Assembly (NCBI RefSeq): GCF_964204645.1
Contig: NC_134030.1
Coordinates: 9,670,278-9,734,277, forward strand
Reading direction: 5' to 3'
Length of the DNA stretch: 64,000 nt
DNA from: Tubulanus polymorphus
Taxonomy: Eukaryota; Nemertea; Palaeonemertea; Tubulaniformes; Tubulanidae
Shown: one piece after another, positions 5,343 through 30,600 of the stretch
How the letters are laid out: every line of letters begins with the position of its first letter
Numbering within the stretch: the first letter of the stretch is position 1
The notes under the pieces: model-generated
What the model was told of the DNA's origin: nothing
Database searches by the model: none
What the model saw: only the letters and a program-made list of their open reading frames with translations
Made by a program: the position numbers and the translations under genes

Positions 5343-5460
5343 ATTGTATAGCTTGATCTATCCCATCGTCTTCATCAAACCAGCAATTTAAGTACATATT
5401 CGTACTCCGTCTAATGGATATAATAATATATTTACAGATACCCTAAACATGTAGGCCTAC

Positions 5461-6411
5461 ATGGCCAAATGGACCAAACGGAAAAAAATGTCGCGTAATA
5501 TGAAATATCTGATATTGCTGGTAGTAATCAACGTAGTAATAATCATTACGATAGTATGTCGGTTTCAAAACATTCAATCCATAAACAACACCCAACGAGG
5601 ACAGCCGTTACTAACCTTGTTTACGTCGATGGGTAACGAGAGATTCTACGCTCTGAAGTATCAGAACGCGTTGCATTTATGGCCAAAAATCGACCCGAAG
5701 ATTGTACCAGTACTATTTACGGACAATGACATTCTAACGGAAACCGCCATTGAGAACGGGTGGAAGGTACTTCCGATTCCCCGCAAAGCTTCAAACCGCC
5801 AACCGTATCTGAAAGACATGTTCGTCAAGGTCACGGAGGAATTCGATTCATTGTTTTACGGGTTTGCCAACGCCGACATGCTGTTTGACGGCACTCTGGT
5901 GGATACGCTGATATGCGTAGGCAACAAAATTGTCGAAAACAGTGAATTAATGTACAACAACCTGATTATTGGACAACGCCGCAACCTGGTCGTCACCGTT
6001 CAGAAGATCAGTACAATCGGTGAGGTCGAGCGACTGTTCATCTCCGACTCGACGGAGTTCGCTACAAACACTCAGGATTACTTTATCACGACTCGTACCG
6101 GCTATCCGTGGAAAAGTTTGCCCTATCTCGTGCTGGGAAGGCCGGGAATCGATAACTGGATAGTATACGACGCGAACGCAAAAAGCGTCGTCGTCATCGA
6201 CGCGTCTAAAACCGTACACGCGTTACACCAGTCCAGCCCCGAGGGTCATTACAACGGATTCGCGCAGGCCGACGCCGACGTCAATCGGATGAAATTCTAT
6301 AACTTAGGATTCAACGCCAACATGGGAACTACCGATTGCGCCGAGTTGGAAACTGAATCGCAACTCGGCATTGTGGCGCTTATACCGAAGAGAAATAAGA
6401 TATGTAATTAA
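5461..6411 (+). CDS. Type II membrane protein, putative Golgi glycosyltransferase
   Basis: This is a 316-residue intronless frame. Residues 1-15 are basic, residues 16-33 form one hydrophobic helix (YLILLVVINVVIIITIVC), and the rest is a soluble, presumably lumenal domain. That is the layout of a Golgi type II enzyme. The domain starts with LLTLFTSMGNERFYALKYQN, followed by VPVLFTD, and contains FANADMLF at about 135-142. There a DxD-like acidic step sits after a hydrophobic strand, as in GT-A nucleotide-sugar enzymes. GRPGIDNWIVYD (about 226-237) resembles the region binding the acceptor in such folds. A donor or product cannot be assigned, and I do not recognise a named human orthologue. 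The start is the first ATG and gives a positive N-terminus before the anchor. Proximity to C1GALT1 on the same strand may be coincidence. Confidence 0.75.
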   Translation: MAKWTKRKKMSRNMKYLILLVVINVVIIITIVCRFQNIQSINNTQRGQPLLTLFTSMGNERFYALKYQNALHLWPKIDPKIVPVLFTDNDILTETAIENGWKVLPIPRKASNRQPYLKDMFVKVTEEFDSLFYGFANADMLFDGTLVDTLICVGNKIVENSELMYNNLIIGQRRNLVVTVQKISTIGEVERLFISDSTEFATNTQDYFITTRTGYPWKSLPYLVLGRPGIDNWIVYDANAKSVVVIDASKTVHALHQSSPEGHYNGFAQADADVNRMKFYNLGFNANMGTTDCAELETESQLGIVALIPKRNKICN

Positions 6412-7997: not shown

Positions 7998-10900
7998 TTA
8001 GGGATTTACTCTTCGGAGATCTTCCGCCGAAATATTTGACCTCTTTATCATTTTCTCTTTATCTTCGTCGCTGATAGGATTCACGTCGAAAGGCGAGTCC
8101 TTCCATTTTTTGATCAGGCGGCAACGTTTTCCCGATTCCGAATTCTCCAGGACGAAAACGCTTATCTTGAAGAATGGGTAGACTCGTTCGCGATAGATGT
8201 TCAAAGTGCCCCAGTGTGAATTACATTTGACGCATGCAATTTTTCCTCGTTCGTCAATCTCATCGTAGCGCTGCGCTTCTCCCTTTCTATGACGGTAACG
8301 GGCATCGATTTCATCCGTCAATATGGTGAAACCGGAGCAGACCTTGCGAAAATCACTCGAGTCGCAAACGTACATGTCACAATAGCTACAGTAAACGCGA
8401 TAGAGGCCCGTGTCCTTTTTTGACTTCTTTTCAATGCTTAATTTTCTCAGCCGTAACTCCTCTATCTGTAGATTTCTCAAATCCAATTTAAAACGTGCAT
8501 TATCCTCTCGATATTTCCTCGTTATTTCTTGAATTGCTTTACGCATTATCTGTTCCCTCATTTCATTGACTTCTTCTTTACGAGTCACCTTTTCTGCCAA
8601 AGCGATCACGACATATCGGCTGCCTTCTTTCCTCGCACGGCCTGAAAATATTTTTTTCATATTTTCAATGTTATTTTTCTTGATTATCTAAGTTAAAGTA
8701 CAAAAGTTTATTACGTGAACATAACGACCTACCTCTAGTCTGAACCATGGCGATCTCGTTTGTAACGTGATTATAGCGAATCACCAAACTACACTGTTTG
8801 ACGTCTAAACCCTCTTCAGCGACAGTCGTGGCAACGAGAACTTTGTGATCACCGTCGCTGAAGTACTTCAACACATCTTCCTGTTTGGATTTAGTCATTT
8901 CTGAAAAGTAAATAATACGAGTAAATTTCCAACACTTTGCAACTACCGACAACTTACGCCCGCCGTTCTCACCCTGTCCGACCAGAAACTTAGCATTCAA
9001 CTGCTTTAGCTGTTCGTCTTCATTCATCCAGTCCTCCAGAATTCTGGCTAACTCTCTCGTCTTAACGAATACGATCACGCGACATTCCGACTGATATTTG
9101 TGATAGCTCCACGTCAGCAAATCTTTGAGTTTTGTCATCAACGGATTTGTATAGCGTTCGTCATCGACTCTCGTCGACAATGCTTCATATACACCTAAAA
9201 ACAGACCCATCGACATGATAACTTTATCAAACGTTGGTTTTCATTTTTCATGTTAGGCTGACTTACGTCCATAGGATTGCTGCAAGAACTTATCCAATTT
9301 ACACGGTCTACCTTGAACATTTATCGTCGGTATAGTTGCGGCAAGAAAACCCAGTGCATCTCTCGACCGGGATTCAAGATTCAACAACAATGATTGGTGA
9401 TAGTACTGGAAGCGTAAAATAGTGTTCCTTTATGTACGTTATATCTTAATAGGTCTGCTTCTAATTCAGCCAGAATTTGATAACGTGAATAATAACTGTA
9501 ATACATTACCAATACCTTAAGGTACTTGATGCACGCGTTCAATTGTTTCCGAACCTTTTGCTCATAGATTGTGGGAAAAATTTTCTCCATTTCGCTAACC
9601 CATTGCGTGTACTGGCATTCTTCTTTGCCTGCGGGGCAACTGTGAAGCCGCTTGCAAAATCCCGGTATCTCTCGATCCATGTCATCGTCGATACCTTCAC
9701 GAATGAAATGATAATGCTAAATGAATCTGCGGACAATTTTTGCGCAATTCTAAAGAACTATGATATGATCTTTTCGACCGTAAGTAGATTCATTGCATAA
9801 TTATGCAAGGATGAAATTACAGAAAGTGAATCAAATTGTATGTGTCGACAATGATACGCTGACTGGGATATCACATTCGAGATCAAGCAGTTGGAAATGG
9901 ACCGTTTATACGATTACCTTTGATTTTTTTCATCTTTCCTTCAATCGCAGTCATGACTTCCAATACGCATCGTTGAAAAATATCTTCCGCTCGCGGCTCG
10001 ATCCTTCTCAGCTCTATAAAATAGTCATACCTTTCGTCTAAACACCAAAAGTCATTATTATATCGAAGCAGTTTCATTTTTTTTTAAATCAGCTATATCA
10101 ACGACCCCTTTTCCATATAATAGTTGACTCCTCCTGAGCGCCTGGTAATTGCTCGAATGTTACTTTTCCCCAGGGAGAGATGACTGATACATGGATAGAG
10201 ATATAGGCTGGGGGTAATATAATACCAAGTTTGGAGCGCATTTGAACATACTCTAGTTTCGATACCTGCGCTATATAAATGACAATTATTATCAATTATG
10301 ATAGTTGGTTCTAATGCTCCCGTTGATACGTAACCCTTATGTTCGTACTGTGCTCGTCCATAGTAAGTCGATCTTGATGACACTTGGGTACGATGTTAGT
10401 GTATGTCTAGCTGTGCAGTGCAAAAATGGGCACAGCTGCATGATCTTGAAGATGACCTCGTAACAGAGGAACGGGGTTGAAATTCAAAAAGTTGTCAAGG
10501 CAAATCACCATTGATAAAACACTTAGTGTTTTATCAATGGTGATTTGCCTTGACAACTTTTTGTAGTGACTACATCCGTGTTGTGACGATTCTCCATTCC
10601 TGAAGATGACTACTAGAATATAGTCGAAACGTCGAATAAACTCCTAGCTCTAGGAAACATTTTCGGACTGTATCGTTATCATTGTGGGATTCTCTGTAAT
10701 GCCTAGGAAAAATCATTGTGGGATTCTCTTTATACTGTACTAAAGCATGGGAATTTCGGAGTAACAGATTTGAGCCTAAGCCCGAGAACCTTTTGTCACC
10801 TGTGGCTCGTCTCTATGCAACCCCACCCCTTGAAAATTAGAATAACCATCGATCCCGCCCTTTCTGAGCAAAGATTAACCTGATTTGATTTTGTTGAGGT

Positions 10901-13900
10901 CGCTGGTATTGTTCGGATCCAACGGTGGACACACCATGAGTGAATCGAGATTTGCACACATCCTCATGATGTGCTCGACTGCTTTCTCCAATGTATTCGA
11001 TTTGTTGGCACCGGGAGAAGCGGTGAGTCCAATTATCTAAATCATAAATCATACATCAAGCGCCAGAATTCAAGTTTCAGGAGGCAGAGAGTGAGAGAGA
11101 GACAATGAATAAATACCTGCGGCAGATATTTGGATTTCTTCTCCAGTTTTTCTGTCATATACAGACACATAATTTCATTGTAAGGGTGGCCCTTGTCCGT
11201 GTGGTGACACTCGTCGAATACGAACATAGAAAACATATCGATAGATACCCTCGTTTCGTTTTCGCTTTCCATCATTGCGTTCAGAAGAACTTGTGCGGTC
11301 ATGACGAGAATACGGTAATTTTGCACGAGTAAATGAAACGGCCCGTGGTCTCTGGTCTCACCGCTAATACCGAGGCTTTTGAATTCACCTAAGTATTCCT
11401 CAAAACGTTTGTGCTGTTGCAAAATCAGCGAAACGCTCGGCACAAAGAATATAAGTTTGTTTTGTTCATTTCTTTCCAAATGTTTCTGAAAGTAACAATT
11501 ACGCGTAGTTTTTAACATTCTTTCCATGCGCAATATCACCTGTATGCTTGACCAGCTCCTTATCAGTTTACGTAATTAAACGTGGAAGTACAGCATTAAG
11601 TGGTTTGTGTCCTCAGTGTGAACTTATTCATATTTTAACGCGTCTCTTCTTATACATCTTTCTATTCTTCTCATATACTCATTTGACAGGGTGTATAACG
11701 AGTTCGAAACTCGGGAAGGACAGATATATCTTCCTGTTACATACATTCTATAAACAGGGCCGGCAAAAGAAAGTTGGCGGCGCTAGCGTTAACCCTGCAA
11801 AAATAGGTGCCTATTTTGTTTAAGGGCTTCATGTACTGGAGAAATATTCGTAAATGGTTGCATTTCTAAGGCTTATGGGCTATTTCAGACAATACTTTTC
11901 TGGTATAATGATTCAGGTTACTTTGTTTAAGACGCTGCGGCTGTTTTAGAGTCGATCACAAATACGTTGACACAAAAAATTCATCATCGGCAAAATTATT
12001 GGCCTGGCCAAAGCCCCCGCTGCGCCACCCCTGATAGACTAAATCAAAAACTTTCAGGAAAAAAATTAGATTCATATAAAAACAGCGAAATTCGTTGTAA
12101 CGTTTACCTTGCAAATGTCCAAAGCCACGAACGTTTTACCGTAGTTAGTTGGAGCTACGATGATCGTATTTTCCCCGCTGTTCCCCTTTTCGGCTAGAGC
12201 CATCTGATGCGAACGCAACTGCAATTTCTTTTGCGTGGGCTTACTTTCGTTCCCTGTAAAACGTTGATGAAATGAATGAAAAAATTACAATCAGAAAGAT
12301 GTTTGTTGTGCTAACGTGAATTCTATTAATAGGTCGCGTAACACGATTCACCTTCGTTAAATTGACCGCCAACGGCGTTTGAGAAACTCGGGATTGCCTC
12401 GTCATCGTCATCATCGCTGCCATAATCGGTGCTAGAATCATCTGGAATGAACGACGTCAACGGTTTCTTAAACTACAAATGCAATCGAAGCTATTAAAAA
12501 AACAATAGGCTAAACAATTATAGCTTGTTTCTCCAAATCGGCCGGATCTTTTTGTGAAAATGCAACGAAATTTGTAATCCCCTCAGTTTACCTATATAGC
12601 TTGCGCGGGTCTGTTATGGAAAAATTGAATGATGAACTTAAAGTAATGTACAGGGTAGAAAGGTGGCCGCTCGGGTCAACATTTAAGCAGAAAAGGGAAA
12701 AAAGGTATCAATCTTTTTAACCTAATTCCAGAACAAAATATGCGACATCTTACCATCACCCGCGTCATCGTCAGACAGTTGGAGTTGAGAGAGATTCAAC
12801 GTTAGTGAACCACTGCCGAGACCATTAGGCTGAGGTTGGGTAACGCCGCGTTCACGTTCATTTTCATTATTAACCTGGGGATCATCACTTCTGCGCTCGC
12901 ATGTTTCGTCTAAACGTTCGCCTTGGACCCTTTCGATGTCTTTGTTACCGGATTTAGCTATACACGTGCAAACAATGAAAGAAACTGATTTTGGTATCGG
13001 ACAGAACAACCGACCATTCACAGATTTCCCATCTTCACTCGCCAGGGTTTGATTGCCGAAGTTCACACCAACACAAACCCTGTCCGCAAACCCTTCATTG
13101 GTCTATTGCATTTCCCGATATTTCTTCGGCGGACGGGTTGCCACTGAGCGGCTACCAGTCTATACCCTAGCCAATCTGAAGCGTAGAGAATCTACCGGTG
13201 AAAAAAGAACGCATCTGATTGTTTTAATACATGGACTGGTGGCCGCTGAAAATTTTGGGCAATGATTTAGACCAATGAAGTGTTTGTGAGGGGCCAGTGA
13301 AGGGCCAGTGTGTGAGCTTCAGAGGGTGGCAATCAAACCCTGGCAAGCGAGAACGCAAATTTGATTTGAACACTTTATTTTTCAAATATAATTTACAGCA
13401 TAGTGTACAAAGCATGATACAAAATACAGTAAATTAGACCTGGAGGGGCCTGTAGAAACTAAGGAATAGTTTGTATAAAACAGGTCCCTCAAAAGAGAAA
13501 AGAAAAAAAAGAGAAATGCAATAAAGAAAATAATATGCTCACAGTCAACCCTTAACACACAAAATGCAATCAAAGTAAACTATGATAACAGCTTGATTAA
13601 GATATAATCATTTAATAAGCCAGTTATTTTCTGAAATATTCCAAAAACAATAATTTTAGTTCGAATAACTGTATGATAAAATCAAGCACAAAGTTGCTTT
13701 CTATAATTTCTTAGGAACAGTTTAGAATTTTCCATGTTTTTTAGATTTTCACTGATGTTATTCCAAAGTAAAGGGCCGGATACTTTTACTGAAAATTTTC
13801 TTCTTAGACTATTGAAAGAAAGTGTTTGTAAATCTTGACGTCGCCGAGTATTGTGACTGTGGATTTGAAAATTTTGGTTCCAATAATTTTCGAATGATTT

Positions 13901-16900
13901 CGGTAATTCGGAGTGGACAGATCTGTAGATAAAAGTACCTAGCCGAAGTTTATTAATATCTTTGAGCTAGAGGATATTAAGAGCTTTGAATATAGGGTCA
14001 GTGTGCGCCAAATAATAGGAATTAGAAATTAGCCTGATAGCTCTTTTTTGCAATACAATTAATGGCTGAAGTTTATTTTCAAAATTTCGTCCCCAAACTA
14101 AGTTACAATACTGGAGGTAAGGATCAATAAGCGACAAATAAAGGGTACGAAGAGAACTCACTGGCAGCTTATGTCTTACTCTATTTATTATACCAATGCT
14201 TCGAGAAACTTTTTTTTAACTGATTTTATTTGATCGTCCCAGGTTAAATTTCTGTCAATAAAAACTCCAAGAAAATTTGTGACATTGACTTGTTTGATCT
14301 CTATATTGTTAATTGATATTCTCAAGTTATGTTTCAATAGTTTACCGAACACCATAAATGACGTCTTCTTTACATTCAATGACAGCTTGTTTGTTTGAAA
14401 CCAGGTATACAATTTTGATAATTCAATGTTTACTGTACGTACTAATCTGTCTAAATTAATGTCACTATAAAAGGCATTTGTGTCATCGGCAAACAATATA
14501 AGTTTTAACACATTAGAAAATTTAATACAGTCGTTTACATATAATAAAACAAGCAAGGGACCTAAAATTGAGCCTTGGGGTACTCCAGTTTTAACGGTAC
14601 ATAACGAGGATTTATAATTTTGAATTTGAACAAATTGTTTTCTATTCTTCAAATAGTTTTCAAACCAGTTGTTAGAGATGCCTCTTATTCCATAAAAACA
14701 TAATTTTCTTAATAAGATTTCGTGATCAACGGTGTCAAAGGCTTTTGATAAATCTAAGAATACCCCAATAGTTGATTTGTTTTCTTCTAAATTTTGTGAA
14801 ATTTCATCAGTTATCAATGTTAAGGCCATGGCAGTTGAATGGTTCTTTCGAAAGCCGAACTGGTTTGGTTGAATGATATGAAACTTGTTACAATATTCGG
14901 TTAATCGATTATACACTATCTTTTCGAGAATTTTAGAAAAGCAAGGCAGTACGGATATCGGTCTGTAATTATCAAAAGAGTCATTATTGCCAGCTTTATA
15001 GAGTGGACGTATTCGCGCTACCTTCAGTTCAGCCGGCACTATACCGGAATTTAAGCTACAGTTAAATATATGAGTTAGCGGGTATTTTACAGAATCAATT
15101 ATTTTCTTAACTACTTTTACAGAGAAACCATCAGCACCAGCGCCTTTGCTGGGTGAGAAATCATTTACAATCTGACTGATTTCATCAGGGTGGGTCGGGA
15201 AAAAGAAAAAGTTTTCATTTACTGGATCTGTCAGATATTTACTGAAGTGGACACCTGTATCTGGTATTTGATTGGCTAGGTTGCTACCAATATTTACAAA
15301 GAAAGAATTAAATTCATTAGCGATATTTTCATAGCCGTTTACAACGATACCGTTCCTTTTGAAAGAGCAAGGTAATCTACACCGATCATTGGAAGATTTT
15401 CCAATTAGACTGTTTAAGATATTCCATGATTTTTTCATGTCGGATTTGGCTGCAAGTAATTTAGTCTCATAATACTTTTTCTCAGCATATTTGAGTGTAC
15501 GAGACAAGGTACGTTTGTAATTCAAATAATTTTTCAAATGTGATCTATTACGCAAAGATTTTCTGTACAAGCGATTTTTGTGTTTAATACATTTCAATAA
15601 TCCAGATGATAACCACGGTTTATGTAATTTATTTTCGTTTATTTTACGGGGAGTTGAAAAAGGAAAACATTCATTATATAATTCCATGAATTTAGTGTTA
15701 AATGCGCTGTATGAGAGTTGCGGGTCTGCGTTACTATAGATATCCGACCAATCAGTGGCCAGAAGAGCTCTATTGAATTTTGAAATGTTACGTTCACAAT
15801 AGTTTCTGTTCGAAGTCACCTCTTGGTCAATTTTGGGCTCAACGTGATTTTAGACAGTAAAAATAGGAAAATGATCCGAAATATCCCTGCTCTTTTCGAT
15901 GACTACACGCCTTTTGAATTAATACGTGAAGCATTCGTGATTTATACATAATTTGCATTATCAAGAGCGCGAAACCAACTGTACGCACTACAATACTTAC
16001 CTGCCATAGTTTGTTGGACATTTAAACGATTGTAAGCTCCATCGGGTGCTCGGCACTTTCTTTGCGTTTCTTCATTACTACTCACCGAATGATTAGCGGC
16101 GAGTTCTACAGAGAAAGATCCAATTAGAGCGCAGTAGAAACAATTGTGAATAGCTTTGTTAAAATACGTTTTTCTAAGTAGGCCTAAATACAATTATATT
16201 TTGAAAACAGGCCGGGACATGTTGAAATGGAGATAATGTGCAAGCCAAAATTCAATAGACACTGAAATTGCTTCTTGGGAATTGCTTCTTAGGGATTCGA
16301 ACCCGATGGTATCGCCACGGCATGAACCCCTGTCACACTAGACCGAGTACACAGGCTCATGCGCAGGTTGGCTGCATGAAAACTTATGCACCAATCAGAT
16401 TGCTTGTTGTATAAGCACGGAAAGAACTATAAATGGGAAAACCCGGGCTGAAATGGGACAAGCTGTGCATGCAGGGTTTCGTACCGTGGCAAATTTCGAT
16501 GCCACCGGGTTCGAATCCCTGCCGGGGGAGGAGAGGATGGGGTAAGTATAAAGGAGCCAGATGATTCAGTGCAAAGGTTAACAGTGCAACCTTATACTGG
16601 ATTCTAGCAGAAACGGGTAGCCAGTGAAAGTCCCGATGTGATCAAATTTCTGAGTCCTCGATATCAAAGCTGAATTTTGGAGAATTTGAACTCGTTAAGT
16701 CTGCAGATAATCCTATCAATAAGCTGTTGCGATAGTCAATGCGAGATAGGTGCCTGGACAAGAGATTCATTTGCTTCAGTACTCCAGCATTTGACTGTCA
16801 GTGGTCATTGTTGCTTTTAATACGGAATGAAGAATGCAGTGTAACGTAACACACGGACTAGTGACACAGTGACTTAGATTTTCTTTTGAGATATTTAAAC

Positions 16901-18697
16901 CGTTTACCTTGGTCGTTGTTCATGTTATTCGTGTTTCGGTCATTTTTATTTTGAGCACCAGTAACGACATTGGAAGCACTGGGAACCGACGTCGCATCTC
17001 TCTCGCCAGATTCGGAAACTAGGTAAAAGTAGTATATATCATTTGCATTATCTGAATAATGTAATGGTATATTTTCAATGGCTTGTCGCTTGTCATCTAC
17101 GACGATAATTGGAAACAAACAAAACAGTTATACTGTCAAAAAACGTGGGTACTTACAACAAACAAAGTCTTCACGAATGCTCCCCAACTCGCTATCGTCT
17201 AAACTCGTGCCTGCTTAAAAAAGTGATGTACATGTAATATTGTATATCGCCAAACAGCGAATTAAATGATTGAAACCGGTTTTCATTGAGTTTTGGTGAA
17301 AATTATCTAAAAATAAAACTAGTCCTGAAGTATTATAAATACCACGTTGTAATACGGAAGCTGCTTCTGCTTGTTCTTTATGCCACTGTTGCAATGTGTC
17401 GGAATTCGCAATGTCTAGATCAGTATTACCATCTTCAAAAACCAATGATTACAATCGAATGAAGGTAAACTCGCACCCGCCGAATATATATCTAGTAGAC
17501 ATGAAAAGACGTTTTTAAATACCTTTTCGCATGAATCCCGCTAATTTGTCGTACAGCGAATTGCAGCCATGCTTTTCGAGGATTCTCAGAAACGAAACCG
17601 GCCAATCTGACTTCGTTCGCGCTACAAACGCCAACAGAACATCCATGGCTGAAATTCATATATGATTCCATTGAATAGTTATATCTAAATATCAATTTCA
17701 AAGTTCGTGACGATACGTTCATCAAAATAACTCACGGATACCTGAAGTGTTTCCATCGTTCTCCAAAGTTCTTTTAACTTTCTCGTATTGGGTTCTGTTT
17801 AGACACTCGTTCTTTAAGTCCAACAAAAGGCCACAATTTGCATCCAATTGAATTGTATCGCAAGCTTCATCGAAATTCAAACGAAGCAAACCTTGGAAAC
17901 AGTCGTAACAATACACATCTTCATTCAATAACAATTTCCGAATGGTTTCATACTCTGAAATATGACCACTTGTAAATAAAACCACTAGAAGTTCATCATC
18001 TATGATCTCATACGTAAAAGTGTACGAGTAATAAATGGTCAGAAATTCGAATTTTTGCCATGCCGTGTCAACCTGTTTCCTTTAACGCATCGATTAGGGC
18101 GGCAAAAGAGCCCTTATCCCAACAATCCAACAGTCCATCCACAAATGATTCAGCGGCATCTTCATTTCGGCCCGCTCGTTCATGTGACTGGATCTTACGT
18201 ACCCATTCTGTTAGAGGAATAAATGCATTGAAATACCAAAATGATACTGATGGACCTAATTTTGCAGGACAGAACTCATTTTCAACATATGCGGTTCCAT
18301 ACTCCCAAATCAGCAGTCTAACATTTCTCCTCCCTATCAAGCATACCATACCCAAAGCGGGGAACAATGTATGCGTTCTTTTTCAAGCTTTCAAGTACAT
18401 AGCCTACCTTTGCTTAAATGATGCGGCATGTAGCAAGTAAGGTGACTAGGTAAATGGATATCCCGAAACCGATCTCTGAACAATTCTATCATCAATTTCT
18501 GCTCTAAAATTAGATTCTATAAGCGTATTTATATTATCAATGATTGATATCATATCAGATGGTTCAGTTAGACGAGGTCATTGTCCGTTGATGCCTAATG
18601 TATTATACGTTTTACATGGTTTATACGAACCCCTTTCGAGTCGAGTGTTGTCTATGTTCGGAACGCTGTTATTTTCGAGACCCGCAGCGCTATTCAT
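7998..18697 (-). CDS. RLR: RIG-I-like receptor 1 (tandem CARDs, DECH-box RNA helicase, C-terminal regulatory domain)
   Basis: Likely cytosolic sensor of viral RNA that signals through CARD-CARD contact. Exons, 5' to 3': 18697-18631, 18503-18408, 18207-18073, 17954-17742, 17648-17523, 17432-17346, 17210-17157, 17018-16908, 16105-16001, 12957-12754, 12441-12352, 12253-12108, 11485-11117, 11036-10880, 10013-9918, 9694-9516, 9405-9267, 9194-8973, 8900-8733, 8641-7998. Phases agree throughout, giving about 1135 aa. CARD1 spans exons 1-3 and CARD2 exons 4-5 (LLDLKNECL, ENDGNTSGI). A 217-aa acidic, Asn/Ser-rich linker follows. Helicase motifs: APTNYGKT (about 463-470), [38 protein letters not shown]. 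The regulatory domain has the zinc ligands CSYC and CVKC and ends KKWKDSPF. First exon and linker exons are less certain; donor 17345 (GTGGTA) is weak. Assignment to RIG-I versus MDA5 needs a tree. Confidence 0.88.
10485..10563. repeat. Perfect 79-bp palindrome in RLR1 intron
   Basis: Arms 10485-10523 and 10525-10563 (39 bases each, beginning CAAAAAGTTGTCAAGG) are exact reverse complements around a single T at 10524. It lies in the intron between 10880 and 10013. The transcript of either strand would fold into a perfect 39-bp hairpin. The flank at 10590-10700 is a dispersed repeat. Confidence 0.95.
10582..10735. repeat. Dispersed repeat related to the C1GALT1 intron hairpin
   Basis: Contains ATTTTCGGACTGT and the unit ATCATTGTGGGATTCTCT, present twice (about 10679 and 10712). 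The opposite-strand form GAGAATCCCACAATAAT occurs at 2468-2484. The segment CGAAACGTCGAATAAACTCCTAGCTC matches GTCGAATAAACTAATAGCTG at 2518-2540. Confidence 0.55.
12505..12727. mobile_element. MITE family B copy in RLR1 intron
   Basis: Left end AGGCTAAACAATTATAGCTTGTTTCTCC, shortened here to its recognisable core GCTTGTTTCTCC, and right end AAAAAAGGTATCAATC...AACCTAATT match the family. The internal GGCCGGATC, GAAATTTGTAATC, GTACAGGGTAGA and GGGTCAACATTTAAGC are shared with the copies near 44775 and 52388. It fills most of the intron between exons 12957-12754 and 12441-12352. Confidence 0.65.
13038..13351. mobile_element. MITE family A, copy 1, in RLR1 intron
   Basis: Ends CTCGCCAGGGTTTGATTGCC and GGCAATCAAACCCTGGCAAG form nearly perfect terminal inverted repeats on a 314-bp unit. 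Interior blocks (CAACACAAAC, GCAAACCCTTCATTGGTCTA, CGGCGGAC, CGCATCTGATT, ACATGGACTGGT) are shared with copies at 20684-21009 and 35511-35833. It encodes nothing. It lies just downstream of the LINE copy, about 80 bp into the same intron from exon 12957. Confidence 0.88.
13372..15960 (-). mobile_element. Truncated, inactivated LINE (non-LTR retrotransposon) in RLR1 intron
   Basis: The minus strand carries the end of an apurinic-type endonuclease domain (DISDHFPIF near 15860-15885), an intervening stretch and a complete reverse-transcriptase core. It then reaches the C-terminal region of a CR1/jockey-like LINE, ending near 13683 with a short 3' untranslated tail. The upstream endonuclease is missing, so the copy is 5'-truncated. 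At least three lesions inactivate it: an in-frame TAA just after the endonuclease motif (about 15850), a frameshift in an A-run near 14210, and an in-frame TAG at about 13967-13969. It shares the transcriptional orientation of RLR1. No clear target duplication was found by eye. Confidence 0.85.
14188..15819 (-). pseudogene. Reverse-transcriptase frame of the LINE copy
   Basis: The longest intact piece is 543 codons. Reverse-transcriptase motifs appear in the usual order: SKGAGADG (about 224-231), IRPLYKAG and NYRPISVL (270-290), FGFRKNHST (321-329), LDLSKAFDTVDH (355-366), GVPQGSILGPLL (412-423) and the catalytic FADD (443-446). The frame breaks in a run of eight A's near residue 530. The downstream part (VSSLRTLYLSLIDPYLQYC...) continues in another frame at 14161-13970. 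With the other stops this makes the copy non-functional. The sense strand is the same as RLR1, so it would be present in the RLR1 pre-mRNA. Confidence 0.9.
16292..16520. repeat. SINE-like repeat and inverted partner in RLR1 intron
   Basis: 16292-16445 is the reverse-strand relative of the repeat at 1-210 and begins with the inverted B-box GGATTCGAACCC. From about 16473 to 16520 a second, plus-strand copy of its tRNA-like end (TACCGTGGCA...GGGTTCGAATCCC) faces it. The two ends can pair as a hairpin over about 40 bases with several mismatches and one gap. Confidence 0.6.
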
Positions 18698-21147
18698 CTT
18701 CGTGTCCAGTCCTGATCCGCCACTCAAGGAGAGTATACTTTTTTAAAAGATATTCACTACAATGAATATAGCAAAGATGCGACTCCTAGAAAGTGAAACA
18801 AGGCGCGGTCCAAGAACTTTGTGGCCCAAAACTGCTAAGATGATTGTTTATAAGCCGACTTACGAATAGTTTCCAATGAAAACCAGGAACACGAATGCGC
18901 ACCTGGTGAAATGCTTGACAATCTGGCAATTTCAATATTCAACACCCTCTGGTGATTGTGGGTTTCAAAAATGCCTAGGCACCAGTATCACGGAAATACT
19001 ACCATGTCATTCTTCAACACCCCCTGGTAAAACTCCCCACAATCATAGAACATGTCACGAGCTACGAATTTGAAATTCTATTCATGTACCGTATATATTT
19101 GAAGTTCCTCTAAAATTGATAAACTCACTGCTGTTTTGGTTTAACGTCGTAGCCTATTGGTTGCGCTTATTTAAGATCACCGAGCTGCGTGAGGATATTG
19201 CGGCACCGATTGGGGCTCAGGACTACGACTTTCAGCTAATCATAACCCCAACGCCTTAATGCGCCTCCTTAGAATTCCAAGTTCTAATTTGTCGGCCTCC
19301 GCCACCACCATGTGAACCCAGCTAAATTTATGGATCCGCCCCTGACTACAAGTCCTCAGTACATGAACAATCAATTAATATTCACTTATATTATAGGCTT
19401 ACAAGTGGAATTATTTGATTGCAATTTTACACTAAATGGTTCTAGTTCTTATAGGCCTATATGCCATTGATAGGCCTCGTTAATATGATTAGGAATGCCT
19501 GATGACCCAGCCATGTAACTGCTTACCTTGTCTCGTGTGTACGGTACTGCGTCTCGCGTTATGCTGAGAGGCGTCGCAATACACAGTATAAGGTTATGCG
19601 CGGTTTACAGTACTTGGTAATCGGTTTTCCCCAGTCGTATTTTAACGACACGAGTTCCCAGCAATCGATTGTACGCATTGAAAAATTGTGTAGATACAGG
19701 CCTATATCAGTAGGAAATGATAGCGCTACCTAACAGGACATTTTGATGATCTCATTTATTGTGTTAACATCCATCGGTTTGGCGAGTATTCCACATCTGC
19801 AAGTAGAAACCTACATATCACGCTGACTCTAAGAGGTAGGCCTTATTTTTTAACAATTCCAGGTAATGATAGGGCACCTTGTCAAACGAACCTTGATTTC
19901 TAAATTTAAATGATAACGCATATAACGTAGGCTAGATTTGGTTGGCTTAATCAGAATATAAGCTGGGTAAAAGCAATAACTAAAAGACCCAATTTAGTCC
20001 TAATACAAAGGCCTTTTGTTAAGGTGAGAAAAAGCGAATTTCTACCAACATCGGTCTGGTGTCTCTTGTCATTTTCTATTGTCAAAGCGATTGAATTATG
20101 TGGAAATGTTAAATTCATTTTTTTAAGTTTGTATTGGTGGTATTACCTACAGTATGACTTGCGCCGGTGAAACGAGAACCCAGCTGGGAAAAGATGGCGA
20201 AGAAAGCTGTTGTACGTATATTCGAATATTCTCCCCAAATAATCGACTCCGTTGTTGCATTGGGAGGTGCTGGCATACATTGATTTTTCTGCCCCTGATA
20301 GTGAGTCATGGGAAAAACCCATTACCATGTCATCGTAGAACCTTCATATATAGGCCTACTACAGTGGCGTGTAGCTAACTCGCTCGTGTGTGGAGATAGA
20401 TATGTAACCCATAAATTACGACTCGTCTCTTTGTAAAGATTACATCACGTACCTATATCGCAAAGAACAAATTGATTTTTTGTACTCAGTTATCCTACTG
20501 GACCCATGGTCTTTATTTGCTGATATTTGGTATTTCTCATAGTATTTCGGATAAAAACCAAGCACCTGGGCGCTTGGTCTTTTCGCATTGCACCTTATTT
20601 TCTGTTGCGAGGTTTTTTTGAAGAAAATATAAATCAACAGGTTCTAACTTAAAAGTCTCGATATTTAATTATTGTTCATATCACGCTTGCTAGGGTTTGG
20701 TTGGCAACCCCAACACAAACTCTGGCCGCAAACCCTTCATTGGTCTATTACATCACCTTAAATTTATTGGGTGGACAGGTTGCCGCTAAGTGGCCAAGTC
20801 TATCAGATGCGTTGTACCGATAGAGCGAATCAACCAGTAAAAAACAACGCATCTGATTGGTTTAATACATGACTGGTGGTCGTTTAGCCGCAAAGCAGCC
20901 ACCTGTCTGCCCAAGAAATCCTAGACAATGTAAAAGACCAATGAAGGGTTTGCGGCCATGGTTTATGTTGACGTGAGCTCGGCGGACGACAACCAAACAC
21001 TGGCAACCGTACATGATTATTGCTAGGCTTACACTGTCATAGTCTCCTTACATGAAATTGCGAATCCCCAGTTTTTGTTCTCGCCATCGGAAAATGGATA
21101 TAGAATATTTAATTGACTAACCACAATCAATTGCGCAAATGTAACTA
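18698..21147. promoter_or_regulatory. Shared divergent upstream region of the two RLR genes
   Basis: The predicted RLR1 start (18697, minus) and RLR2 start (21148, plus) face away from each other across 2.45 kb, so promoters for both should lie here. I see no convincing NF-kappa-B or interferon-response consensus by eye. CACCCTCTGGTGATTGTGGG (18949) and CACCCCCTGGTAAAA (19018) are related blocks. A MITE takes up 20684-21009, leaving 138 bases before the RLR2 ATG. Open frames in the region are short and unsupported. Confidence 0.5.
20684..21009. mobile_element. MITE family A, copy 2, immediately upstream of RLR2
   Basis: Ends CGCTTGCTAGGGTTTGGTTG and CAACCAAACACTGGCAACC are imperfect terminal inverted repeats. 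Internal blocks AACACAAACTCTGGCCGC, AACCCTTCATTGGTCTATT, CGCATCTGATTGG and CCAATGAAGGGTTTGCGGCC match copies 1 and 3. Its own halves are also partly complementary, so it can fold along its full length. Confidence 0.85.
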
Positions 21148-24100
21148 ATGACGTGTTCCGAACCGTTCGATGATTGTGGTGAGTTTCACGGTTTTGATTA
21201 CTGCAATTTTGAATATTGAAATTATGCATTTTCCCTGGACCACTAAATGTACTTCAAAGGTTACTGCTAAATTGTCACGAATGTTATCGCTAATTTCTAT
21301 ACAAAATCTGAAATATGTTTGAACGTACTATGATATATAGATTTTCTTATCGCTAAATCATTCAGGGCAAAAATATCTGATAGACCATGTGTACAGAGAT
21401 CGATTTCAAGATATACCTATCCCTAGCTTCGTTACCCACTTCATGCCGCATCATATAACCGAAGGTACGTACGCCTACGTCGGATTGTCGTCCGTTGAAA
21501 AAATGTGTGTTTAAAACTATTTGTGGGGTGATAAATACCAAAACTTTTGGTATCCTTTTGGCAAAATAGCTGTCTGCCCAAAGAATTTTTTTCAGCATTC
21601 TGTTGTTTAGATTATAAATTGATTGTAGAATGGATATTGAAGATATTTAAATCTGAAGAGGCAGGCAATCACGAGGCTGCTGCGAAGCTATTTGTGGATG
21701 GAGTGCTAGAATGCTGGAAGGAAGGGTCGTTTGTTGCCCTTATCGGCGCGTTGGAACAAGCAGGTATAATTTCGGCTATTGAATGATCCGAACATCTTGA
21801 TAAGCTCTGAATGTAGGCGGATTTACATTTCTTGTTTCAGAAAACGAAGTACTTTGTCAATTGCTCAAGAATGATGACGTTTTCAATTATGATTGTTTCC
21901 GAATATTGGTCAGCTTGAACATGAAGCAAATCTGCGAAACCGTGCAGCTAGACGTTAATGCTGGTTTGATGTTAGATCTGAAGCAGCTGTGTCTAACTGA
22001 AAGCCAATACGAGAGAGTTAGAAAGGTGTGCGAGAAACAGGGAAACACTGCAGGTATGACAGTCTGGTCCTTAATAGCGGGCACCATCCTCGGCCCATTA
22101 CGATTGTCATTTGCCACACATGTACATTCGATATAATTGAATTTCAGCGGTGAACGTACTCGTGACAGATTTGTTTATATCTAGAACAAAACCGAATTCG
22201 CCAATGAAATTTCTTGACATACTCAAAAAGAATGGCTGCGACTTGATGTATGACGAATTGACAAAGTTCATCGGAAAAGGTAGCTTATAATTTAGCTGTA
22301 GTTGACGGTATTCATGATATTCCCACTCCGCGAGAAATGGGAAACGACGAGCTTCGTTTGAAGCAAAACAAATAAGACATGTAGTTGATTGATGAAACTC
22401 TAGTGAGTATAGATTTTTTGGTACTGAAACATTTTTAACGAAAAGTTTGGCCAAAAATCGCCAGATATAGTATGAACATATGATATCCACAACTTAAGTA
22501 TTGTACGTATTTACATAAATACGGTCGGTCCCTGGAGGGAAATCCTTTTTGAAATCGCAAGGGAATGCTTGTCTTCGATGTCGGAAGGAGCGGAGGCAAA
22601 GCGTTACTGACAATCGATAAGTATCACGAGGCTCCACGTGATCTCGGAAAACATTTGATCAGTTCTCTACAATAATAGAATTACATATGCATTTTTTTAC
22701 AGACGATACCGATCACTCGGCCAAGTTGGACAAGTGGGAAATGTTGCAAACAGAAAAATCTCGGAACGCCGAACCTGAATCAGATCAACATATAGACACC
22801 AGTGAGTTTTCTCGTTTGAATTTAAAGTTATGATTTATATATAATTCGTTTTTGAATCAATACTAATTCAAGAATAACAATGTTATCAAATATCTATATA
22901 TCAGGTTGCGGTGAAACATTATCTGTGGACGTGGCTGGTGAGAATTCAGAAGAAACGCAACGCAAGTCCCTCTATGATTCTCCGTATGAGGCGGAGGCAA
23001 CTCATATCGATACGCCACAAAATGCTAACAACGTAGCGACGCCTGGTCAGCATAAATATCCAATCGTTTATCAGTGATCTTAACTTGCCAAATATTTTTC
23101 CAAAGGCTCATGAATTTATATTTTCTGGCAGGGATTAGGGGACGGTCTCGGGGGTTCGGACCATTCAGGTTGCTATTTTCATCAATTTAAAGATCGTTAG
23201 AAGCTTCAAATTTGATGCTCATCCTTTCGGAGATGGCATATTTTCGGGGTTTTTTCTTGAGTATCTATCTACCACTGTAGTAGTAGCATATGACATGGCT
23301 GCTTTATTCGAAACATGCCTCTCCTGTTCTTCTGAACCCGGCCTTCCAATTTTCCTTATATAGATCCATCCTTAAATATTGTATTTTACTCGTTGCTTAT
23401 CGGTTTATATTCCACTATCTTATACTCATTGACCTGATAAAATTGCTATGGTTAGTTAATATCAACATATCGAATAAAACATAGAGCTAGGTAGGAGTCG
23501 TCGATATTGTTAAAATGAAAAACATAATATGAATGAAATACATTTTACAGACGAAGAAGAAGATCCAGTGCAGATTAAACAACTAGAATTGCGTGCTCAA
23601 CAAACACGCCTCGCTGAGTACGGTAACAGTGGCAAAAATGTTATCATCGTTGCTCCAACTAACTTCGGTAAAACGTATGTTGCTTTGGATATGTGTAAGG
23701 TAAAAAGTTGTTTTTCGTAATAAGACGCATTTACACGGCTGTACGTGTTAAGGTCTCTGTAATATTTCATTCGAATACCTCGTTTTTATTTTAAGAAACA
23801 TCTGAAACGAAATGAACAAAACAAGCTGATATTCTTTGTGCCTAGAGTTCCCTTGATTTCGCAACAGCACAAACGTTTTCGTGAATACCTAAGTGAATTC
23901 AAAAGCATTGGAATGTGTGGTGAGGCGGGAGATCACGGGCCGTTTCATTTACTTCTGCCAAAATACAGAATTCTCGTGATGACTCCCCAAATTCTACTCA
24001 ATGCAATGAAGGACGAAAATAGAATGGAAACAAAGGTGTCGATCGATATGTTTTCTATGCTCGTATTCGACGAGTGTCACCACACAGACAAGGGCCATGC

Positions 24101-26970
24101 TTACAATGAAATTATGTCGTTGTATATGCACGAGAAATTGATCAAGCAAGCGAATTATTTACCTCAGGTAAAATTTACATAATCGAATGGCAGATGTTTT
24201 AGCCTTTTTTTTTCAAAAGTGAAGGCCTTGAAAATCATTTTGGTAATAAACTTTGTTTATTTGACTAGATAATCGGACTCACTGCTTCTCCCGGTACCAA
24301 CAAATCGAATACAATGGAGAAAGCAGTCGAGCACATTATGAGGATGTGTGCGAACCTCGATTCGATCATGGTCTGTCCAAATTCGAATGCGGAGAACTTG
24401 CAAAACGATGAAATAAAAACAGGTACGTCATAATTCTACATATAACGCTGGTCGAAAAGGTGTTAGGTTGGATAGCAAATAGTTAATGAGTTTAAACTGT
24501 AGTGCTATCACATGGCGAAGTGTAACTGGATTTCGGGTTGAAGATCCGAACACAAATATAGTGTCGTCGTGTATTATCCAATATCGTGTATTGCCTCACC
24601 ACCCAAGAACATATTAAACATGTACCTGGCCTGATCAATGCCTCCTGAGTGCCGAGTACTGTAGCCAATGATGTAGCATCTCCTCGTGGAGAGACAAGGA
24701 TATATCAAACAAGGGAGGGGTAATGATACCCGTATGAATGTCACTGGTCACAGGCGCTTCGGGTATATCGGTACTTGCGCTTAATTTTGTATACACGTAT
24801 TATCAATTTATCTTTGAAAATGCGGTGAAATCTTCAGAACTAAGAACAGTCACTCCCCGTAAGCATGATATTTTTCAACAACGCATAACTGATGTCATGA
24901 TCCGGATCGAGTCGAAAATTAACACCTTCGCCGGTAATGCACATTTTAATAAATCTTTTTAAACAATTCGACCGTTAGTTATTCCGTGTGCTCCTAACAG
25001 CATTCGTGTCGATTATTTGCTCAGGTGTCAATAACGAAACGGCATCAAAGATTCCCGAATACATCAATTTGCTTCGGAGTTGTCCTGCCGCAAAGAACGA
25101 CTGCCAATACACGGGATGGATCAGTCAAATGAAGAAAATCATTCCCAAGCTCCAAAATCCACTTTTGAACGATTGCGTCCAGTATTTGATGGTATGAATT
25201 TAGTATTTGCGTGGCTGCACTACTTTCTATTATTTGAATTGCATTTTCGAGTACATGTTTTAAGTAGATTTCAGTAGCGGTGTTTGTTCCTTGTAGCATT
25301 ATCATGATTCGTTGTTACTGAATGATAAATGCCGTTCAAGAGACGCGCTAAACGACCTCGAGAAACATTTACCTTTAAAGCTGTTGGACATGCCGATGGA
25401 AACCCATCGGTTTCTGGAGCAGTCCTATAAAGGTAAGTTTTAATATTAAATTCGTACGTAGATGAAAAATGGTTGATCGAACAACGAATAATGGGATCTT
25501 ACGTGCGCGTTATTATGTGCTATTTAGGATTACACGAAGAATTACACTCTAAAGTCGATGAGGAATGTTACACGAACCCATTGATGAAACTTCTTAAAGA
25601 TTTGTTGACGAAGAGCTATTCCCAATATCAGTCGGAATGTCGCGCAATCGTATTCGTCAAGACGAGAGAGTTAGCCAGAATTCTGGAGGAATGGATGAAT
25701 GAAGACGGACAACTAAAACAGCTGAACGCCGCGTTTATGGTTGGACAGGGTAGGTACAACTATTGGAGTGATAAATTAGTTAACAAGTAGTTTGCATAAC
25801 AGGGAGGGAAGCCAGAGTTCAGGGCAGTGGCTGAAGTTAGTAAACAACCTACGTAGATGCTTACGTCGCACATAAGACACTGAATAGAAGATAGGTGAAA
25901 GTATCGGATTAATCGGAACCCACAACGACAACACGAGGGGAGAACGCAACGTGGCCCCCACAACACAACGACCAGGATAGTGCCAAACTATGCACAAGCC
26001 GCTGGAAACTTACTCGCTTATATACCTTTTCAGAAATGACCAAGACAAAACAGGAAGAGGTATTGAATAATTTCAGCAACGGTGATCACAAAGTTCTTAT
26101 AGCCACGACTGTCGCTGAAGAGGGTTTAGACGTCAAACAGTGCAGTTTGGTGATTTGCTACAATCACGTTACAAACGAGATCGCCATGGTTCAAACTAGA
26201 GGTAGAACTATAGGAACTATATATATCTTTTCCATATTCCGAGACATGAGATAATCGTAAATATTATCATAATATTTACGATTATCTCAAACATCATAAT
26301 GATGACCTATGATCTATATATTTAAGGCCGCGCAAGGAAAGAAGGAAGCAAGTACATAGTCATTGCCGTGGAAGATAAGATCACGGCCAAAGGGGAACTC
26401 AATGAACTGAGGGAACAGATAATGCATGTAGCGATTAAATTCATCACGAGAAAGTACGAACGAAATGAGGAGCAATTCAAAACTGATTTAGAACGCTTGC
26501 AGACGAGGGAATTAAAGCAGAAGCAGCTTAGCCTCGAGAAAAAGCCGAAAAAGCAAGAAGATCCGTTCAAAGTTACATGCATCAATTGCTTCACGGATGT
26601 CTGTGAATCGGTTGATTTTCGGAAGATTGCTTCTGGTTTCACGATAATATCCGATCACATCAATAAGCGTTACAAACGCAGAGCTGCAAAATCAAAGACG
26701 TATTGCAACATCGAAGAGCGGGGAAAGATCGAGTGTGCCGCCTGCGGACTATTGTGGGGATCTTTGAACATCTATTGCGAACGGGTGTATCCCTTCTTCA
26801 AGATAGAAAATTTCGCCCTCACGAATTTGCGAACTGGCGAGACCTCCCCCCGCATAAAGAAATGGAAAGACTCCCCGTTCGCTGTGGAACCCGTCGGCGA
26901 TGAAGATATAGACAACATGATAAATAAGTCTACTATTTCGCCCGAAGAACTCCGTCGACTAAATCCCTGA
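21148..26970 (+). CDS. RLR: RIG-I-like receptor 2 (tandem CARDs, DECH-box RNA helicase, C-terminal regulatory domain)
   Basis: Likely cytosolic viral-RNA sensor. Exons: 21148-21178, 21366-21464, 21629-21763, 21841-22053, 22148-22279, 22703-22801, 22905-23045, 23551-23699, 23796-24167, 24269-24422, 24838-24933, 25025-25191, 25297-25432, 25528-25749, 26034-26201, 26327-26970. All phases join, giving about 985 aa. CARD1 is about 11-88 ([21 protein letters not shown]). CARD2 is about 89-203. A linker of about 80 aa follows. Helicase: APTNFGKT (318-325), VFDECHH (DECH 425-428), [31 protein letters not shown] (ends near 772). The regulatory domain has CINC (856-859) and CAAC (908-911), then WGSLNIY and KKWKDSPF. 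Exon 1 is a ten-codon exon ahead of a strong GTGAGT donor. The linker exon may instead end at 22939 (GTGAGA), also in phase. The last exon, both CARD2-start exons and several helicase exons equal RLR1's in length. Confidence 0.92.
26248..26288. repeat. Perfect 41-bp palindrome in the last RLR2 intron
   Basis: Arms 26248-26267 (starting GAGATAATCG) and 26269-26288 are exact complements around one C. They fill a third of the 125-bp intron between the motif V/VI exon and the regulatory-domain exon. Confidence 0.93.
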
Positions 26971-27605: not shown

Positions 27606-30600
27606 TCAATCTTTGCAAGGTCGTCGGAACATTTGACCGGCTTCGTGTATCCATTTGTTGGCCACTGAAAATGAAAGAGAAGCTTATAATTTGACGTTAA
27701 AGTTGAATTCATTCCTGACTGCAATTGCTGCGAATAAACCATTTTACAGTTGCTAGCCGCCATTTTGTTAGGGTACTTTTGTCCTGTATTGTTGGGTCAT
27801 TATTTTCTCCATTTTAGAAACTATTTGTGATGCGTGTTTTATCATATCTCATCTGTCCCTGGATGGATTTTGACAGTTTTAGCAACATTTAAACCGTGTG
27901 AATCTCTAGTTTTTTTTTTTGCAAAGATCATTTTTCAAATTTGCAACAATGCGACATGAGAGCGATATAAAAACCCTTTACCCCATTTTGTCCCCATTAA
28001 TATTGGACATCCGCCGTGTGTTGTACTGAAATCTGGTGTCCCGTCGTCGAAAAGGTCGTACCAGAAGGCGGCCGCTCCTTTCGTCGCTGGTACGTATAAG
28101 TCGATATCTGTGAAAACAGTGGCGCCCCCTGCAGTGACATCGTTCAGCTAGAAAATACGATTGATCGATAAAGTCAAATGAATTGGTAGATTCGATCAAC
28201 TATCCGGCTAATATGGTGGCTGCAGTAACGTAACATTCCGGGTATGCAAATGGGGGCACCAGAACGCCAAAAACACGAAAAGGAACGGCGAATTTTCTCT
28301 AAAACTCCGCAAAACCTACGTAAAACATCCAAGTTGCCATTCTGTTTCCGGAACCGCCGAAAAATCGTGTTTCACCGCCAGTGTCCTAGGAGAAACATAT
28401 ACGTATTAATATTGCAATATGCAAACGCAATGATGGAATATAATATTGCATGGGAACTTGAAATAACGATATTTAAGTCGATAGTTACGAAGAAATCGTG
28501 ATGGGGCGTGAATAGGCCACCGATGCCATAGTTTACGACCTGAAACGTACGTTGTCGAATGTTAGCAAAATCGCGTTTCAAAATATTATCGAAACAAGTT
28601 TACTTAATCGTTATCACCTCAATCATAACTTAAATATAACTTTTAATCGACCCAAGTACATATAGGCTTACAACCTCTAGAGGGTTGGCATCCCTTTACG
28701 GTACGCATGTATTCACCGAAGAATCGTCTGGCAATTTTGTTACGCAGGATCTCCATTAAGGAATATTCTTTATCTTTCGATAGGGATTAACATTTTTATT
28801 CATTTGATTGATAGACTTCTTAGATACAGTACAGATACAGTCGAGTGTGATCGGCGGTCGAAATTACACGAATGTTTTTGAGATCAAACAATCTTCCATC
28901 AGCCCAACCGGCAGGCGACTGATTGGGTAGGCTGCTTATTTGATACATTAAAATTTTAGCGATAAATATACTACATGCAAGGTTGAAGATCATGTCAAAT
29001 GTGACTCGGATTGCGGTTTTACGACATTCAAAAATTAGCATTAGTGCACAACTGATGTTTTATTAATAGCAATCGGTATCCTTTAATAGTGAGAATCTTC
29101 ACGAAAGTGTGCTATAAATGTGGAATGAATGAAATAAACTTTATAAATAATACATGTAATAAAAAACAGATTTGTAGACCGCACTATAGGCTACAAAACA
29201 GATTAACATCGCTAAAACAATGTGCTTATCCTTTACATATTTCAGAAAGTCCTATCCGATATTTTTATTATTCGAAGTTTTAGGATGCCAACCCCCTTCG
29301 TCTGTTCATCCAAATGATTTTGTGTTGCAATAAATCAAGATACGAACCTGCAATGGCTCTGCGTGTGGAATTCCGGGGCTCAGCGCTACGCTTAGTCCGG
29401 TAACTAGCATTATTCTGTTGGAAAGTTTTGCAATGAGACCGCTATCCGCTAACCAAGCCCTAAGACAAAACGAGCGAATATGAATATCATGAGAAACCAT
29501 CTTTTTAGACTTCGCCGAGTTCGATTAGATTCACCGATTTTGACCGATAACGACAGGACGTGTTCCTGCCCGTACAGGGGCGGATCCAGGGGGTTCGCTA
29601 GTTGCCGGTGATGCAGTAGATTTTTAAGATCTGCCTTCTCTGGACTAAAGGGTAGAACGAAATTATGAATTTACTAATTATGTAAGCTTAGTGACCCGCT
29701 GTAATTACTTCAACCAATTAGGCCCATGACCCAATCAATACATAATATCAGAAAGCATCTCGCAAAGCTAATTCTTAAGGGCTTTCAGTCAACTGCCATT
29801 TGAATCAGTGTGAACCCCTGGAACTGCTCCTGCCATGACTTAATTAGATAGAACATGTTTTGTTAACTCACGTTTGGCTGATCCTGTAGTCAACGTCGAC
29901 ATGTATATTAGTACCCTGGCGAACTGTGGATTGTTCAAACTGGAAAAAAACCAATGTATATTTATCAACTATTGACTCGGATTTATGCTGTAGATGCAAA
30001 CCATCTACTTCTGGTGTTGATAGTGGTGGTTATCGAGCGGTATCTAACGGTTGACTAGGTAAGATCCCCCGGTAATCCCCGGCAAAAAATCCCTATTCCC
30101 CGTTGAAAATTTCCACTGGGTCCTCTAGATGGTAAGAATTCGAATTATTTTGCGGTACGTGTGCGCGTGCGTGAGATAGAACTGGCTACATTCATTCAGA
30201 GACAGTTTTGACGAAGTTAAAACCGTTACATACGATGGCGTCATGGGGACATTAATTTATTTTTATTTTCATTTTTCCATCTACGTATTTATCTGCGCGT
30301 TTACAAAGCCAAAATTACTTCATTAATCCTTGATACGTGTATTAATTGATCATATTGTATTTTATTCATTGTCGACAATATCTAACGCAATATCTGTTAG
30401 TTTTCAACGCGCCAATAAACTTTCAGTTCGTTTTCTCGTTGTACCATGCGGAGGGTATGTCTATATCACTACTAATCCGTCCAGATGTCAACAATGGATT
30501 TAGTTTTTAAAAACAACACAAAAGCTAAAGGATTTTTGTTCGCAGCCAGGGATTATACCGTTCGTAGTTGGAGCAATATGCGAGTGTATAAGCTATTGAA

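Follow-up and report, generated by a model that had tools for sequence, protein, structure and literature searches.

What are the two helicase genes that run away from each other in a 64,000-nucleotide stretch of the Tubulanus polymorphus genome, how are they related, and have their parts evolved together? This stretch, referred to here as the window, is C6:9670278-9734277 of a 267.8-Mb genome in 77 contigs. It contains two genes, A and B, which have the same order of two CARDs, a DECH helicase and a C-terminal regulatory domain (RD), with the catalytic motifs of the helicase and the paired CxxC motifs of a zinc site, and which form an inverted duplication. We read them as two RIG-I-type RNA sensors that arose when one CARD-CARD-DECH-RD gene was duplicated locally, in inverted orientation and long ago, and give this reading a probability of about 0.8. 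The pair is real and neatly illustrates a pattern already known, is ordinary in kind, and leaves unchanged the understanding of what RIG-I-like receptors (RLRs) are. The mosaic of divergence along the two copies is moderately interesting and less expected.

Gene A lies on the minus strand (18503 to 7998) and has 18 recognised coding exons and 1,071 residues; gene B, on the plus strand (21366 to 26970), has 15 recognised coding exons and 974 residues. Their proteins are identical at 566 of 969 aligned residues (58%), and 12 of the 14 introns of B interrupt the alignment at the same column and in the same phase as an intron of A; the remaining two fall within the poorly alignable linker, for which five exons were modelled in A and two in B. 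Among the 13 exon pairs outside the linker, six are equal in length, and the differences in the remaining seven are 3, 3, 3, 3, 3, 6 and 12 nt. A blastn comparison of the window with itself found the similarity between the genes to be inverted and confined to the exons or hard by them. The mean divergence between the copies is purifying, with an overall synonymous divergence (dS) of 1.27 and non-synonymous divergence (dN) of 0.30 by the Nei-Gojobori method. The duplication is inverted and old. An inverted duplication had already been proposed in an initial annotation of this DNA, and the shared intron positions and phases, the protein identity and the opposite strands all bear it out; the six exon lengths quoted there (135, 213, 96, 222, 168 and 644 nt) were recovered in both genes. 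At the sequence level, a close kinship of A and B is supported because the C-terminal part of B (query residues 423-652) matches the A copy at 245 bits and a profile built from the C-terminal exons of A and B scores 65 bits against the PDB RLR that it matches best, figures that come from different methods and can be compared only roughly, and because no other RLR match was found in the genome.

Gene models

Both gene models are predictions. They were obtained by six-frame translation of window positions 6000-29000, comparison of the two sides and exon-by-exon modelling of both genes, with splice sites picked from the comparison of A and B. The recognised parts of gene A are as follows.

18408-18503, minus strand: first recognised exon, first part of CARD1, 96 nt; 5' start exon not located
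18073-18207, minus strand: exon 2, end of CARD1, 135 nt (CARD_2 match)
17742-17954, minus strand: exon 3, first part of CARD2, 213 nt (Pfam match)
17523-17648, minus strand: exon 4, end of CARD2, 126 nt (Pfam match)
12352-17432, minus strand: linker exons 5 to 9, at 17343-17432, 17157-17210, 16908-17096, 16001-16105 and 12352-12441
12108-12253, minus strand: exon 10, helicase motif I, APTNYGKT (Pfam match)
11117-11485, minus strand: exon 11, motifs Ia to II, DECH (Pfam match)
10880-11036, minus strand: exon 12, motif III, LTAS
9267-10013, minus strand: exons 13 to 15, helicase insert, at 9918-10013 (96 nt), 9516-9694 and 9267-9405 (RIG-I_C match)
8973-9194, minus strand: exon 16, motif IV, 222 nt
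8733-8900, minus strand: exon 17, motifs V and VI, 168 nt
7998-8641, minus strand: exon 18, pincer and RIG-I C-terminal regulatory domain with stop, 644 nt (Pfam match)

Gene B was modelled from the following parts.

21366-21464, plus strand: first recognised exon, first part of CARD1, 99 nt; 5' start exon not located
21629-21763, plus strand: exon 2, end of CARD1, 135 nt (Pfam match)
21841-22053, plus strand: exon 3, first part of CARD2, 213 nt (Pfam match)
22148-22279, plus strand: exon 4, end of CARD2, 132 nt (Pfam match)
22703-23045, plus strand: linker exons 5 and 6, at 22703-22801 and 22905-23045
23551-23699, plus strand: exon 7, motif I, APTNFGKT (Pfam match)
23796-24167, plus strand: exon 8, motifs Ia to II, DECH; diverges little from A at synonymous sites
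24269-24422, plus strand: exon 9, motif III; diverges little from A at synonymous sites
24838-25432, plus strand: exons 10 to 12, helicase insert, at 24838-24933 (96 nt), 25025-25191 and 25297-25432 (Pfam match)
25528-25749, plus strand: exon 13, motif IV, 222 nt; diverges little from A at synonymous sites
26034-26201, plus strand: exon 14, motifs V and VI, 168 nt; diverges least from A at synonymous sites
26327-26970, plus strand: exon 15, pincer and RIG-I C-terminal regulatory domain with stop, 644 nt (Pfam match)

The joined frames of both genes contain no internal stop, and the splice sites of the two models are canonical, with GT at 31 of 31 donors and AG at 33 of 33 acceptors. The gene ends of the initial annotation, 7998 for A and 26970 for B, were reproduced. 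Its description of the genes as complete was not confirmed: in both, the first recognised CARD1 exon starts mid-codon behind an acceptor, and start codons were not located. The common region, given there as 2.45 kb, is also larger, as the first recognised coding exons are 2,862 bp apart, a distance that would have to accommodate both 5' exons.

The linker exons are the least certain part of the gene A model. For the exon after motif III, upstream acceptors (180 and 120 nt) were dropped, and the downstream acceptors give 96 nt in both A and B. A coding reading of the intron that precedes the motif V/VI exon was likewise rejected, a canonical donor and acceptor standing at matching places in the two genes. 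In gene A this intron has 72 nt (8901-8972, minus strand) and is stop-free in frame (open reading frame 8671-9240), and its retention is possible.

Domain architecture and family membership

Judged by domain matches and motifs, membership of the RLR family is clear for both predicted proteins. Pfam finds CARD_2 (two stretches), DEAD, ResIII, RIG-I_C, Helicase_C and RIG-I_C-RD in both genes, each over its cut-off. The helicase insert (Hel2i) is present, with RIG-I_C (PF18119) matches of 44.4 and 50.8 bits against a cut-off of 23.2, and so is the regulatory domain, with PF11648 matches of 73 and 72.5 bits against a cut-off of 25.6 and CxxC pairs in both copies. The zinc site is called by sequence only, as an AlphaFold model of the C-terminal exon pair was too poor (mean predicted local distance difference test score, 49.5). 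Pfam and the motifs read in the translations identify A and B as superfamily 2 DECH helicases with motifs I, II, III, V and VI. Motif I is TNYGKT in A and TNFGKT in B, the first Gly of the RIG-I sequence TGCGKT being Asn in both.

Placement among vertebrate RIG-I, MDA5 and LGP2 is only a lean towards RIG-I, taken from PDB bit scores. For B, the best match is RIG-I (7tnx, 299 bits over the whole, with 285 for the helicase to the C-terminal domain and 16 for the CARDs), followed by LGP2 with 284, MDA5 with 280 and a Dicer-related helicase with 172 bits. The helicase part of A (502 residues) scores 256 bits with RIG-I, 244 with MDA5 and 242 with LGP2. The tandem CARDs of A are co-linear end to end with those of RIG-I, at 1.7e-7 for the best chain (6bzh) and 2e-4 for the full-length chain, and match MDA5 at 0.0014. 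The two genes resemble vertebrate RIG-I (DDX58) in their co-linear tandem CARDs, their DECH helicase with insert and their C-terminal zinc domain, and RIG-I is the best PDB match for the whole of B, the CARDs of A and the helicase of A. MDA5 and LGP2 belong to the same helicase and regulatory-domain family and score nearly equally, whereas the CARDs of MDA5 match those of A more weakly than those of RIG-I do.

The RLR complement and related loci

In the whole genome, RIG-I_C-RD was found twice at E 0.001 or better, in A and in B, and therefore this locus may be the entire RLR set of the animal. A 652-residue query from B gave 18 genomic matches at E up to 0.01, 14 of them inside the locus. The other 4 are weak (1.1e-5 to 0.0029) and fall at three places elsewhere, with reading frames that resemble Dicer, a DDX19-like DEAD-box protein and FANCM. 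The search was exon-wise with only the best candidates scored, and a very diverged third RLR could escape it. A whole RLR repertoire in the form of two inverted neighbours would provide a clean natural system for the division of work between duplicated antiviral sensors in which the motor is kept.

Local duplication of RLRs has precedents. According to the accessible part of a survey of 227 RLRs in 58 species, lophotrochozoans have local tandem duplication, CARD-CARD types and exon gain or loss between siblings, and in three bivalves 8 of 13, 6 of 12 and 6 of 19 genes are locally duplicated (PMC8998645). A and B share with these V1-type RLRs the CARD-CARD-helicase-RD order, local duplication and exon gain or loss between siblings, and differ in being two inverted genes, where the survey describes arrays in larger families (PMC8998645). 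The initial annotation considered the arrangement worth describing. The pair itself stands, but it is less remarkable than first thought because local RLR duplication has already been published for lophotrochozoans (PMC8998645). The terms "head-to-head" and "gene conversion" each occur 0 times in the accessible text of the survey (PMC8998645), and titles and abstract openings among the open-licence papers listed gave no report of head-to-head RLR pairs or of RLR gene conversion, which is no proof of absence in print. In the accessible parts of other reports, Nematostella also has two CARD-containing RLRs in one genome, RLRa and RLRb, which unlike A and B are given on two different scaffolds; long double-stranded RNA is bound by RLRb only, RLRa having no affinity for it (PMC8476169). 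Most cnidarian RLRs are described as having one CARD (PMC8998645), and the origin of RLRs is treated elsewhere (PMC2686710).

Mosaic divergence of the helicase exons

The two copies have diverged unevenly. Protein identity between A and B is 54% in CARD1, 50% in CARD2, 36% in the linker, 77% in the first helicase lobe, 44% in the insert, 83% in the second lobe and 54% in the C-terminal domain; the linkers, both acidic, have 177 residues in A and 80 in B. At synonymous sites most exons are close to saturation, and four helicase-motif exons have diverged little. The proportion of synonymous differences (pS) is 0.50, 0.35, 0.46 and 0.30 in B exons 8, 9, 13 and 14, which carry motifs Ia to II, III, IV, and V to VI, respectively, and 0.58 to 0.95 in ten other exons. 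The same codon is used at 329 of the 541 identical degenerate residues, where saturation computed from the genes' own codon use is 38%, and at 40 of 47 in exon 14. In windows of 30 sites, the variance of same-codon identity was above that of 5000 out of 5000 permutations within amino acids, and the richest window had a P of 0.007. The longest identical nucleotide run, 41, had a P of 0.001 against 2000 shuffles of codon columns, a control in which regional protein conservation is free to vary. For the acceptor-side intron flanks, only that of exon 14 (65% over 37 nt) beats all 156 mismatched pairings.

These observations might imply that the helicase-motif exons have stayed alike through partial gene conversion and that the CARDs, linker, insert and RNA-binding end diverged meanwhile, an explanation that we put forward tentatively. 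Motor-confined conversion is a fair reading of the pattern, and two sequences cannot separate conversion from codon constraint. If it were true, the locus would hold two sensors with a shared, concertedly evolving engine, whose input and output ends evolve separately. The wider proposal, in which the whole RLR set is one inverted pair with helicase motor exons that were repeatedly re-copied as the other parts diverged, is similarly doubtful.

Several results weigh against conversion. Exon 1, a CARD exon, also has a low pS (0.37, from only 17.5 sites), and the proportion of non-synonymous differences (pN) is likewise low in exons 8, 9, 13 and 14, so that the two measures are low together. Neither the longest same-codon run (P 0.10) nor the poorest window (P 0.20) reaches significance, and the other 12 of the 13 acceptor-side flanks are no better than mismatched controls. 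Such results are what speak for old RLR duplicates without any conversion, whose helicase exons would be kept alike by constraint on codon choice, by splicing signals or by a lower mutation rate, and we give this explanation close to even odds: low pS accompanies low pN across the exons, the intron flanks of exons 8, 9 and 13 do not exceed the controls, and the same-codon run is unexceptional. Exon 14 fits it poorly, both in its same-codon fraction, set against the 38% at saturation, and in an acceptor-side flank that outranks every mismatched pairing when the other 12 do not.

Two of the 11 donor-side flanks stand out: that of exon 12, which outscores all 110 mismatched pairings, and that of exon 1, with a rank of 0.027. 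The similarity at exon 12 is out of register and was taken as chance. The acceptor-side match of exon 14 concerns the intron tails before the motif V/VI exon, at 8901-8972 (minus strand) and 25994-26033 (plus strand).

The C-terminal ligand pocket

We read the ligand pocket from alignments to RIG-I, with residue numbers counted from the chain numbering. H847, F853, K858, K861, K888 and K907 of RIG-I are taken here to be its 5'-triphosphate pocket residues, Lys858 presumably being a 5'-triphosphate contact. The zinc cysteines, K861, K888 and K907 are kept in A and B. In both copies F853 is replaced by Tyr and K858 by Glu, and H847 is not kept; K849 and K851 are Lys in B, and Glu and Gln in A. 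Since K858 is Glu in both, the ligand of RIG-I cannot be assumed for either A or B. The changes at F853 and K858 set the pair apart from vertebrate RIG-I, as do the Asn in motif I, a motif IV-V loop that is 7 residues shorter in the spliced model, and the presence of two copies head to head. The pocket residues suggest, as a prediction, end recognition unlike that of RIG-I and unlike between A and B. With lower confidence, A and B may have a common motor and a different ligand or partner. The part-by-part divergence gives testable predictions, namely that ligand and adaptor choice differ and that the ATPase is the same.

One copy could alternatively be a regulator, a decoy or a decaying gene, as suggested for Nematostella RLRa in the accessible part of that report (PMC8476169). 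Gene A would be the candidate by three features: a reverse transcriptase frame of the long interspersed nuclear element (LINE) type at 14188-15849 (minus strand; RVT_1, 7.2e-36), on the same strand as the gene and inside its 3.56-kb linker intron, before the last linker exon; a linker over twice as long as that of B; and the Glu and Gln near the RNA-binding loop where B has two Lys. Yet both frames are open for about 1,000 codons with intact helicase motifs and canonical splice sites, and acidic linkers occur in both, and we regard such a loss or change of role as unlikely.

Proposed mechanism and the RIG-I-type assignment

Autoinhibition, activation by RNA and CARD signalling are carried over to A and B by analogy with vertebrate RIG-I, for which they are established knowledge. 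The CARDs would be held back until, with ATP, the helicase and the C-terminal domain close around viral RNA that is double-stranded or end-marked. The tandem CARDs would then be released and seed a CARD adaptor, through which IRF- or NF-kB-type target genes might be switched on. The genome contains five matches to IRF DNA-binding domains at four loci. STING_LBD gave no genome match, but no control matched either, so that absence is not inferable.

Some findings count against this assignment. The CARDs of B match RIG-I weakly (16.3 bits, E 0.016), and the presumed triphosphate contact K858 is changed in both copies. The genome search with CARD_2 gave five matches at E up to 1, four at the locus and one weak match elsewhere (E 0.47), and identified no CARD adaptor. 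A scan of 18504-21365 for start exons, defined as phase-1 ATG exons with a donor score above the third-lowest of the modelled donors, gave B 9 possible exons and A 3, without a convincing pair; the B candidate at 21247-21259 would leave an ordinary 106-nt intron and has no counterpart in A.

The proteins might also be of the MDA5 or LGP2 type, a view favoured by the near-equal bit scores for the three vertebrate families, by the loss of K858 and by the profile of the C-terminal exon pair, which ties between RIG-I (65.0 bits) and MDA5 (64.9), with LGP2 at 52.3. The tandem CARDs and helicase core of A are nevertheless closest to RIG-I, and LGP2 has no CARDs, which makes either type rather improbable. 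An assembly artefact, with one gene read twice across a false inverted join, can be dismissed, as no point was found for it and the copies have only 58% protein identity, different linker exons and a LINE in one copy only.

The only CARD_2-like match away from the locus lies around C2:26524618-26524770, where the frames look death-domain-like to us; it is a possible CARD or death-fold adaptor.

The region between the genes and neighbouring frames

18504-21365, no strand: region between the first recognised coding exons, 2,862 bp, which should contain both 5' exons and the promoters

The initial annotation suggested that the divergent arrangement could allow co-regulation and that the two sensors could split ligands or signalling; both suggestions are conjectural. 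The upstream regions of A and B showed no mutual similarity in the self-comparison of the window. The motif GAAANNGAAA has 12 matches in the window against 6.35 expected, a count reached in 4 of 100 shuffles, with one site in the shared region, at 18789; GGGRNWYYCC has 3 matches in the window and 0 in the shared region. Neither motif was used as evidence. A short, partly palindromic repeat family has at least three copies, at 13031-13249 in an intron of A, at 20707-21009 between the genes and at 35508-35770. Near-perfect palindromes are located at 10485-10563 (79 nt, 98.7%) in an intron of A and at 26247-26289 (43 nt, 97.7%) in the last intron of B.

Beyond the 3' end of A there are frames at 2643-3413 and 5455-6411, both on the plus strand, which look like a core-1 galactosyltransferase and a further membrane-anchored protein, the latter without a Pfam match. 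Tail to tail with gene B are frames at 27935-28199 (minus strand), which include a 70-residue piece without a Pfam match and which resemble prolyl 4-hydroxylase exons. Farther along, a single-exon frame of 393 residues at 38304-39485 (minus strand) presumably encodes a peptide G-protein-coupled receptor.

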